A stretch of 64,000 bases of DNA. Source: Phycisphaerales bacterium (lineage in GTDB: Bacteria; Planctomycetota; Phycisphaerae; Sedimentisphaerales; Anaerobacaceae). A program made the translations under genes and the position numbers. The notes beneath the pieces are model-generated. The model was not told where the DNA came from, did no database searches, and saw nothing but the letters and a program-made list of their open reading frames with translations. Below are positions 56,502 to 61,421 of the stretch, in pieces. Position 1 is the stretch's first letter. Each line of letters begins with the position of its first letter. The stretch spans positions 204,395 through 268,394 of the forward strand of contig PLLP01000024.1 in assembly GCA_003141315.1 (NCBI GenBank), written 5' to 3'.

Positions 56502-56936
56502 ATGAAAAAGTCCAAATATTTTACGCTTAAAGGTTTCACGCTTGTAGAGCTTATGATAGTGGTCGTGATACTGGGCCTTTTGGCAACCGTTGTTGTGCCG
56601 AGGATGCTGGGCAGACCCGAACAGGCCAGGCGAACAAAGGCGAAAATAGACATCCGCAGCATAGAGGCAAGCCTGTCGCTTTTCAAGGCTGATACCGGGC
56701 GTTTCCCGACCACAGCCGAAGGTCTCGATGCCCTCGTGAAAAATCCGGGTATAAAAGGCTATAGCGAAGACGGTTATCTGGATAAGACGCCTTTAGACCC
56801 CTGGGGCAACAGGTATATCTACATCTGTCCCGGCGTTCACAGCAAAGATTACGACCTGAAATCTTACGGCAAAGACGGAGAAGATGGCGGCACAGGCGAC
56901 AACAGCGATATCGAAAGCTGGAACCTTACTGAGTAA
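56502..56936 (+). CDS. gspG: Type II secretion major pseudopilin GspG
   Basis: A 144-residue pseudopilin. MKKSKYFTLKG is cut before FTLVELMIVVVILGLLATVV (Glu5 present). The C-terminal half has the GspG-type DTGRFPTTAEGLDALVKNPG and PLDPWGNRYIYICPG with a terminal Gly/Asp-rich calcium-site-like segment (KDGEDGGTGDNSD). It has the normal short leader, unlike gspI and gspJ. Confidence 0.94.
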   Translation: MKKSKYFTLKGFTLVELMIVVVILGLLATVVVPRMLGRPEQARRTKAKIDIRSIEASLSLFKADTGRFPTTAEGLDALVKNPGIKGYSEDGYLDKTPLDPWGNRYIYICPGVHSKDYDLKSYGKDGEDGGTGDNSDIESWNLTE

Positions 56937-56940
56937 GATT

Positions 56941-57456
56941 ATGACAAAACAAAAATTGAACATTACGGGCGGCAGGGGGTTCACCCCGTTAGAGAAATCT
57001 GCTGATTTAAATCGGCGGATTATTTTTAATGGAATTAGAAAACGGTGTTCTCTACCGGGATTCACCTTAATGGAAGTTGTGATTGCCCTCGCAATCACCT
57101 CCATATCCCTGCTGGCATTGCTCAGGCTGCATTTGGTTAGTGCTCGTTTAGTCGATACTGCGGAGCTGAAATCACAGGCGGTTCTCCTGGCGGATGGAAA
57201 AATTGCGGAGGCGCTGGCCGATGGCTTCCCGAACGTTGGCACAACCAGCGGCGCCGTTCAGCATGGCGGCACGAGCTTTCAATGGCAAAGAGAAGTTGCG
57301 AATTTATACCCCGCTGAATTGAGTAATTTTAATCCCGATTTTCAGGGCAATGGACTTAGAAAAATATCAGTCAGCATTGATTGGAAGACCGGCATAGCAG
57401 AAAAGCATTTGAATATGTTCACTTACGTTGCGGACAGTCCGCCGAAGGTGGATTAA
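56941..57456 (+). CDS. gspI: Minor pseudopilin GspI with an 81-bp insertion in the leader
   Basis: ATG 56941, 4 bp after gspG stop, is preferred; the longer frame from 56884 overlaps gspG. The prepilin motif GFTLMEVVIALAITSISLLA is preceded by GFTPLEKSADLNRRIIFNG, encoded by the MITE-like insertion, which makes the leader about 39 residues instead of roughly 8-12. The mature part has GspI features (VSARLVDTAELKSQAVLLAD, then GISVDW-like C-terminus). It should initiate the pseudopilus tip with GspJ and GspK. Confidence 0.88.
   Translation: MTKQKLNITGGRGFTPLEKSADLNRRIIFNGIRKRCSLPGFTLMEVVIALAITSISLLALLRLHLVSARLVDTAELKSQAVLLADGKIAEALADGFPNVGTTSGAVQHGGTSFQWQREVANLYPAELSNFNPDFQGNGLRKISVSIDWKTGIAEKHLNMFTYVADSPPKVD
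56977..57066 (+). mobile_element. MITE-like 81-bp insertion, copy 1 (in gspI)
   Basis: GGGTTCACC (56977-56985) and GGATTCACC (57058-57066) form a 9-bp near-direct repeat, as a target duplication would. Inside are inverted ends CCCGTTAGAGAA and TTCTCTACCGGG and a GATTTAAATC core. The repeat offset is 81 bp, a multiple of three, and the repeat encodes GFT. Confidence 0.75.
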
Positions 57457-58275
57457 ATGAACCGGAAAACGAAAAACAAAGGATTCACCCCGTTAGAGAA
57501 GGCCGCAGATTTAAATCGGCGGATTGTTTTTAATGGATATAGAAAACGGTGTTCTCTAACGGGGTTCACGCTTATCGAGATTCTGGTTGCTATAACAATG
57601 ATAGCGATGGTCTTTGCTCTTGTGTTTGGCACAAGCGCCGCCATTACCGGCGCGGTGCGGGCCTACAACGCGAGGCGGGATTTGGTTTCGCCGGTCAAAT
57701 CGGTTATCAGGAATATGGCCCGGCAGATAAGATGTGCGTATGCACCTCACGTCGAAACGAAAGCCGTTAATCTGCAATCTTCCACAATAAATAATCAATC
57801 GTTAATAACAAAAGGCTTTGCGTATTTCAGTTGCTTACCTTCGGTACACCTTCGGTCCGCCTTCGGCGGACTGCACCTGATAACCACAAGCGGGTTTTCC
57901 ATCGGGAGCTGCGAGCAGGATGGAATGTACGACGTCGCATACAGATTCGACAGCGACACCGGCACACTTTTTTATAGCCAGAGGCCCTTTGCTCCTGTTG
58001 GTGAAGACCTTAATGAGAATTGGTCCGCCGAAGGCAGAGTCGCAGAAGGCATCGACCGGATTACCCTGAAGTTCTTCGACGGCAAGACCTGGCTGCAAAG
58101 CTGGGATTGGTATGAACAAAAACAAAAGCTGCCTGCTGCTGTTAGCATTGAAATAACTTTGAAAGGCGAGCAAAACTATCAATACCGGTATGAAACAGTC
58201 GCCTTTGTGATGGCTGCTGAAAATCGCAGCGAGCAGACAGAATTGAAACAGTTGGCATCTGTGGGGAAGCAATGA
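57457..58275 (+). CDS. gspJ: Minor pseudopilin GspJ with an 81-bp insertion in the leader
   Basis: A 272-residue protein. MNRKTKNKGFTPLEKAADL leads through the inserted segment to GFTLIEILVAITMIAMVF, the true prepilin motif with Glu5. The mature part contains KSVIRNMARQIRCAY and LNENWSAEGRVAEGIDRITL, typical of GspJ. A CCTTCGGT-rich patch with a TCCGCC/GGCGGA palindrome at 57855-57871 also lies inside the gene. ATG 57457 follows the gspI stop directly. Confidence 0.9.
   Translation: MNRKTKNKGFTPLEKAADLNRRIVFNGYRKRCSLTGFTLIEILVAITMIAMVFALVFGTSAAITGAVRAYNARRDLVSPVKSVIRNMARQIRCAYAPHVETKAVNLQSSTINNQSLITKGFAYFSCLPSVHLRSAFGGLHLITTSGFSIGSCEQDGMYDVAYRFDSDTGTLFYSQRPFAPVGEDLNENWSAEGRVAEGIDRITLKFFDGKTWLQSWDWYEQKQKLPAAVSIEITLKGEQNYQYRYETVAFVMAAENRSEQTELKQLASVGKQ
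57481..57570 (+). mobile_element. MITE-like 81-bp insertion, copy 2 (in gspJ)
   Basis: GGATTCACC (57481-57489) and GGGTTCACG (57562-57570) are spaced 81 bp apart, as in copy 1. The inverted ends CCCCGTTAGAGAA and TTCTCTAACGGGG are perfect here. The internal sequence closely matches copy 1 (GATTTAAATCGGCGGATT). Confidence 0.78.
57855..57871. repeat. Palindrome GTCCGCC/GGCGGAC inside gspJ
   Basis: A perfect hairpin with a cTTCGg loop, preceded by two further CCTTCGGT units (57837-57856). The codons read within the GspJ mature domain (HLRSAFGGLH). Confidence 0.7.
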
Positions 58276-60885: not shown

Positions 60886-61421
60886 TACGGCTTACACACA
60901 GAGAACGCTGGCTGATTACTGCAATCACTACGATTGTTGCGGTCTGGGCATTTTACATCTTCGGATTAAGGCCTGCAATCGAGCGCATAAAAACCCTCAA
61001 TCGCGTAATACCCGAAAACCAGGCGAAGCTCGCTGAGCTTAAGGCAAAGAGCAGGCAATATCTCGCCTTGGCGGCAGCGATGGAAAATGTGAAAAATAAC
61101 AAGGTCGGCGGTCCTGATAATTTCGAGCTTGTCCCATTTCTCGAATCCACCTGCAAAGACTGCGGGCTTGCAAAAAAAGTTGTCACGATGAAACAGCAGG
61201 TTATTGCCGCGGACTCGAAGTATTCCGAGATAACAGCCGATATACAGTTCGAGAACATAACGCTCCAGCAGCTTGTCGAGTTCCTGCTCAAAACCGGGTC
61301 GTTAAACAAACCGTTGTGGGTAAAAAGCCTCTATGTTTCACAGGCCAAAACTGATTTAAGCCTGATTGGCGTCACTCTGCAGATTTCCTCTTTCAAACCG
61401 AACCCGACCCTCCACCCTTAA
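60882..61421 (+). CDS. gspM: Type II secretion protein GspM
   Basis: A 179-residue protein overlapping gspL by 4 bp. One N-terminal membrane helix (WLITAITTIVAVWAFYIFGL), a coiled coil (TLNRVIPENQAKLAELKAK) and a small ferredoxin-like domain ending near LQISSFKPNP. Sequence is weakly conserved in the family, so the assignment rests partly on position as the last gene of the operon. No gspH, gspN or gspO lies in the window. Confidence 0.8.
   Translation: MIRLTHRERWLITAITTIVAVWAFYIFGLRPAIERIKTLNRVIPENQAKLAELKAKSRQYLALAAAMENVKNNKVGGPDNFELVPFLESTCKDCGLAKKVVTMKQQVIAADSKYSEITADIQFENITLQQLVEFLLKTGSLNKPLWVKSLYVSQAKTDLSLIGVTLQISSFKPNPTLHP

Follow-up and report, generated by a model that had tools for sequence, protein, structure and literature searches.

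A palindromic MITE-like element in the leaders of gspI and gspJ belongs to a family found in many bacterial phyla and unusually often at prepilin cleavage-site codons

Palindromes that invade proteins in frame are, to our knowledge, known mainly from Rickettsia and Wolbachia; both the Rickettsia palindromic elements (RPEs) and the protein-coding palindromes of Wolbachia were reportedly described by Ogata, Claverie and co-workers. RPEs are short palindromic repeats that occur between genes and also in frame within unrelated conserved genes, with no known transposase (PMC10969869, PMC2229807), and their target duplication is entered as "?" in the second of these papers (PMC2229807). Here we analyse two insertions in neighbouring minor pseudopilin genes, gspI and gspJ, within a 64,000-nucleotide stretch of DNA (hereafter the window). 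The genes belong to a type II secretion operon that includes a gspD-like frame from 51398 and a gspM-like frame ending at 61421. We consider it very probable that gspI and gspJ each harbour a copy of a non-autonomous palindromic mobile element (a MITE) that generates a 4-bp duplication, survives in frame and finds a safe harbour in prepilin genes.

All features of the two genes described here lie on the + strand. gspI occupies 56941..57456 in the ORF list, with the start chosen so as not to overlap gspG (an alternative in-frame ATG lies at 56884), and its product gives an N_methyl match (PF07963) together with a sub-threshold T2SSI match (PF02501). Its leader contains a 77-bp element copy at 56984..57060 (covariance model E 6.6e-12 in a search of the window), whose inverted ends lie at 56984-56996 and 57048-57060 and which sits between a left TTCA at 56980..56983, read as a 4-bp target duplication from the sequence and from the duplications seen on other copies, and a right TTCA at 57061..57064. 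In gspJ (57457..58275; T2SSJ, PF11612, above cut-off) the leader holds a second 77-bp copy at 57488..57564 (E 2.7e-12 in the same search), with perfect inverted ends at 57488-57500 and 57552-57564 and TTCA at 57484..57487 and 57565..57568. Both inserts lie just behind the codons for Phe-Thr in the prepilin motif and have near-perfect 13-bp inverted ends; the right end in gspI shows two changes (CTACCGGGA vs CTAACGGGG), and the Gly codon there has worn to GGA. The two cores are 86% identical, each being the other's closest relative among all copies in the genome, and both copies fold strongly (z -4.1 and -5.1). At the right-hand junctions, GGA (57058-57060) plus TTCA (57061-57064) restores a Gly-Phe-Thr cleavage site in gspI, giving a predicted leader of 40 residues, and GGG (57562-57564) plus TTCA (57565-57568) does so in gspJ, giving a predicted leader of 36 residues.

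A sequence-only reading of the window had described twin MITE-like insertions, in frame and offset by 81 bp, with inverted ends and a common core, that lengthen each leader by 27 residues and leave a decoy GFTPLEK. This description holds in full: a 77-bp element plus a 4-bp duplication adds 27 codons to each gene. The same reading bounded the inserts by a GGRTTCACS repeat; a duplication is indeed present, but its length is not 8-9 bp, for it consists of the 4-bp TTCA next to the element's own GGGG end. The Gly of GFT must be apportioned in the same way, the left Gly codon belonging to the gene and the right one to the GGG end of the element.

Two further observations come from the window. The gspG leader (56513-56545) reads YFTLKGFTLVEL, which contains the near-repeat TTTACGCTT / TTTCACGCTT; a worn insertion or mere chance could account for it. 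A second short palindrome, TCCGCCTTCGGCGGA, occurs six times in the window with up to 2 mismatches (55367, 57438, 57856, 58024, 58472 and 61479; 0.13 expected), several times inside gspI, gspJ and gspK or at their ends, and some copies of the main element also contain similar GCCGGCGG-type palindromes.

The sequence-only reading had staked its case on further copies in the genome and on empty sites in orthologues, and both are found. The 12-nt end CCCGTTAGAGAA has 28 matches in the 2.35-Mb genome vs 2 for the reversed control and, because of these counts and the covariance-model E-values at both inserts, we regard the element family as not due to chance. Searching the genome with the covariance model, which was built from 20 elements, placed copies at about 30 distinct sites, most of them 45-121 bp long and located both between genes and in frame within them. 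In a 294-genome sample of the phylum every other genome has at most 2 matches to the 12-nt end, which is the chance level, and true paired copies occur in 3 of 60 relatives (G042, G054 and G058, from another family of the same order); such a patchy distribution is as expected for mobile DNA. When the gspI and gspJ leaders of relatives were compared directly, the gspJ homologues of about 20 relatives and two gspI-like genes proved to have short leaders without the insert, and one relative (G034) has an insert in gspG instead. Since the relatives' genes are without it, the insert in gspI and gspJ was gained. Within this genome there is also a subfamily of 75-78 bp copies that have a core of their own and are up to 90% identical to each other (L018 1134-1211, L266, L269, L275 and L276); it takes in the insert in dnaE and several copies outside recognised genes, and is perhaps the most recent expansion here.

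The duplication is a regular companion of the element. In an unbiased sample of 25 copies from other genomes, taken by their left end only, 24 have the same 4-mer on both sides (shuffle mean 11.2, max 18), and these include the rare identical 4-mers CTTA, TTGA, TTCG and CTAA. TTCA and TTTA also agree between the two sides among the matches listed from a cross-phylum scan described below (10/3/0/86; Fisher P 2e-11 at the variable position). Insertion favours TTYA with a C next to it, and the identical 4-mers argue for staggered cutting, with joining of the ends, at TTYA|C. The flanks are not GGNTTCAC, a constancy that the sequence-only reading had put up for testing: a 4-bp duplication, usually TTYA and then C, is what the copies have in common, and TTGG, CAAA, CTTA, TTGA, TTCG, CTAA and CCAG are among the less usual 4-mers.

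Transposases of the PF01609 and PF13701 families are rare in carrier genomes, and only isolated end matches with 2-3 mismatches accompany them. Y1 transposase genes (PF01797) are frequent in these genomes, and 30 such loci had no end at up to 1 mismatch nearby, only isolated 2-mismatch matches. A search for an autonomous copy as a long pair of inverted ends with matching flanks found none; the candidate spans were rejected, as they enclose ordinary genes such as neighbouring prepilins and ribosomal proteins, and the unpaired ends mostly belong to short copies with one worn end. Because neither a transposase nor an autonomous copy emerged from the searches of PF01609, PF13701, PF01797 and long end pairs, we can only infer the mobilising enzyme, which would act in trans, making 4-bp staggered cuts and joining the ends of the element to them.

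A prepilin gene would be a particularly forgiving place for such an insertion. The prepilin site, GGN TTY ACN, contains the preferred target TTYAC. Insertion there would keep Gly-Phe-Thr upstream, followed by element-encoded Pro-Leu-Glu-Lys, while the duplication would restore Phe-Thr and the GGGG end of the element would supply a new Gly codon in front of it. The rebuilt site would adjoin the hydrophobic helix and the 27 extra residues would fall in the leader, so that the mature pseudopilin is predicted to be unchanged after leader removal. Prepilins are processed by prepilin peptidase, and since the rebuilt Gly-Phe-Thr stands next to the hydrophobic helix the enzyme should cut there, discarding the 27 residues. 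In the upstream GFTPLEK, Gly, Phe and Glu stand at canonical spacing but no hydrophobic stretch comes after them, and cutting is therefore expected at the second GFT. Taken together, the rebuilding of the site and the TTYAC target would make prepilin genes a safe harbour.

Copies in other genes have survived as well. Thirteen copies lie in open coding frames of this genome: in six prepilin genes, polA, dnaE, lnt, ribF, addB and the genes of an AAA-domain protein and an FtsX-type permease. The polA insert corresponds to an exact 12-residue gap in alignment with the E. coli Klenow fragment, the dnaE, ribF and lnt alignments are likewise interrupted at the insert, and in other phyla there are in-frame copies in glyS, proB and a DEAD-box helicase gene. 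The coding copies that were measured have lengths that are multiples of three, vs 8 of 16 elsewhere (P 0.008), a bias that is partly to be expected because a frameshifting copy would escape recognition as coding. Read on either strand, the element ends have two frames of three without stop codons (TPLE...SLTG and PVRE...SNGV); short copies can therefore be read through, and a copy persists within a gene as an added peptide if its length is divisible by three.

The family extends far beyond this genome. We scanned 84,980 species genomes with TTCTCTAACGGGGTTYAC, requiring TTYAC, and obtained at least 119 stretches. Among the matches listed, 54 are from Omnitrophota and 13 from one MAG that is titled Deltaproteobacteria and filed under Myxococcota; further groups among them are Elusimicrobiota, Nitrospirota, Auribacterota, Thermodesulfobacteriota, Planctomycetota, Bacillota and several Patescibacteria groups, and for some of the groups with one or two matches chance may be responsible. 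Among copy-rich genomes, Omnitrophota DeMMO3_19 (1.7 Mb) has 109 end matches, Meg22_1012_Bin_121 (5.5 Mb) has 78, and one MAG each of Elusimicrobia and Uhrbacteria has 52 and 17, respectively, against 0-1 for the control in each case. The same element family is thus common to many distantly related, mostly uncultured bacterial phyla. Plasmid, phage and viral-contig collections contained no match to the element, and Rfam gave no match at the window inserts up to E 1 and, at six other loci, nothing beyond an ordinary tRNA. In several phyla there are also minimal copies with TTTA on both sides, about 31 bp long and with one hairpin (CCCCGTTAGAGAACGAAGTTCTCTAACGGGG; L043, L062, L079, L129, L153 and others), which may insert independently or may be products of deletion.

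Prepilin genes are occupied far more often than their number would suggest. About 30 prepilin genes are present in this genome and six contain the element, at the same codons each time, whereas about 0.1 such insertions are expected under random use of TTYAC and 0.7 if 15% of TTYAC sites are usable (P 5e-5), both expectations being based on site numbers extrapolated from the window. Elsewhere the element occupies 10-11 of 26 prepilins in an Omnitrophota genome (G060), 2 of 9 in G070 and about 1 of 10 in G066, and none of 13 in G067 despite some 25 element copies; in the cross-phylum scan, which itself required TTYAC, 26 of 128 distinct sites among the matches listed are prepilin motifs. The proposal that the element targets prepilin genes is therefore right as regards a hot spot and wrong if read as exclusive, an exclusivity that we reject because the majority of copies sit outside prepilin genes. 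It should rather read that TTYAC is preferred and that the GFT codons of prepilins are unusually often occupied. Tolerance accounts for survival in prepilins, though perhaps not for the whole excess. The element end TTCACCCCGTTAGAG resembles the prepilin codons TTCACNCTNNTNGAG, and a choice of end-like targets or homologous copying could add to the excess; no GG lies upstream of copies outside prepilin genes.

Under local gene conversion, a single prepilin gene would have received the element and passed copies on to the others by way of their common GFTLIE motif; we think this a possible but less probable explanation. It would fit the mutual closeness of the gspI and gspJ cores (86%), the identical or near-identical copies in neighbouring prepilin genes of other genomes (L083, L045) and the inserts in three consecutive pseudopilin genes at another locus (L091). 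Gene duplication, however, can account for some of the identical neighbours, the copies outside prepilin genes have target duplications of their own, and the other four prepilin copies here differ in subfamily and length. Since most prepilin copies in this genome fall into different subfamilies, they probably stem from several independent insertions, and within the MITE reading the gspI and gspJ copies may still be one insertion copied to its neighbour. At the Omnitrophota locus just mentioned (L091 1349-3103), each of the three genes has the insert, intact or degenerate, and the inner sequences diverge widely, suggesting old, repeated insertions.

The structure of the element raises a different question, that of how it moves. 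The family has 13-bp inverted ends, YCCCGTTAGAGAA, and a full-length form of about 108-111 bp with internal hairpins, of which most copies in this genome, both window copies included, are shortened relatives. Full-length copies have in common an outer stem, hairpin A (GCCRCCGACT..AGTCGGYGG) and hairpin B around GGTGGTTTAATGCCACC, and in many of them a third hairpin adjoins the right end. Hairpins A and B pair far better than slid controls and show 58 compensatory-change cells across phyla vs 19.8 +/- 4.2 in shuffles; because the shuffle control takes no account of sequence relatedness and a single member supplied the structure, we regard this conservation as strong but not final. Folding of the full-length copies likewise exceeds that of shuffled sequence by a wide margin (z -4.7 and -10.8).

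These hairpins could mean that the element moves as a folded single-stranded intermediate, of RNA or ssDNA, and not passively as a DNA MITE on which a DDE transposase acts; the hairpins would then be required for movement. Compensatory changes that keep two internal hairpins across phyla go beyond what a plain MITE needs, and the strong folding of full-length copies points the same way. A 4-bp duplication with inverted ends, however, usually marks DDE-type insertion, none of the 30 Y1 transposase loci has ends beside it, the hairpins are lost in many copies, and the shuffle control has the limit just given; on balance we find a folded intermediate rather doubtful. A broader proposal, tentative and on balance improbable, is that one folded mini-element family spread over more than ten phyla through a fold-dependent intermediate, with prepilin genes as safe harbours in which the peptidase site is regenerated. 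If that were true, the pseudopilin leaders of whole lineages would consist of mobile DNA.

We think it improbable that the prepilin inserts are kept because they are useful, as a longer leader or as an mRNA hairpin near the start codon that regulates pseudopilin synthesis or processing. Recurrence at the same codons, the persistence of some sequence-degenerate inserts in frame (L187, L091) and the strong folding of both window copies would suit such a role, but relatives manage without the insert, the occupied prepilin genes differ from genome to genome, and the same element is found in polA, dnaE and intergenic DNA. Finally, although each insert resembles a duplicated GFT motif, an old vertically inherited part of the leaders or a tandem GFT duplication is scarcely credible given the inverted ends, target duplications, non-prepilin sites and family members in other phyla, and we reject it on the roughly 30 dispersed copies and the empty sites in relatives.

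How, then, does the element compare with what has been described? It is short, non-coding and multi-copy, with terminal inverted repeats and a target-site duplication. Bacterial MITEs such as RUP, Correia/NEMIS, ERIC and Nezha (PMC2229807, PMC3733652) are likewise short, non-autonomous and multi-copy with inverted ends and a target duplication; the present element differs from them in its frequent in-frame coding insertions and in hairpins conserved across phyla, and neither a parent insertion sequence nor a match in plasmid and phage collections was found for it. REP/REPIN sequences with their RAYTs, and TIRtrons (PMC3733652), are also palindromic, repeated and widespread, and Y1 transposases are present in many carriers of our element; the latter, in contrast, has a 4-bp duplication and no association with Y1 genes at 30 loci. 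Identity with REP/REPIN and RAYT was rejected, as copies flank none of the 30 PF01797 loci convincingly.

The closest known system is that of the RPEs, whose repeats likewise have inverted ends and sit within unrelated protein genes in a frame that they leave open. Here, too, a palindromic element is found in frame in unrelated genes (polA, dnaE, lnt, ribF, addB and prepilins). A search of the open-access literature for GFTPLEK, for Omnitrophica palindromes and for a MITE in prepilin genes found no earlier report, though one may still exist, and we rate the element as a new, multi-phylum variant of RPE-like palindromic elements. It accounts for the recurrent "GFTPLEK...SLTGFTLIE" leader of predicted prepilins, which can mislead the annotation of cleavage sites. 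In these prepilins the peptidase meets two sites that both have the correct Gly, Phe and Glu, so that its choice between them can be studied in nature, and PolA, DnaE and GlyS are among the many naturally occurring proteins that tolerate a mobile peptide. The element works like an RPE; as the likeness is one of behaviour, we do not class it as an RPE. It differs from RPEs in its presence in unrelated, mostly uncultured phyla, in its prepilin hot spot and in its clear 4-bp duplication: RPE-like behaviour is thereby extended to those phyla, and the duplication marks it there as true insertion through staggered cuts.
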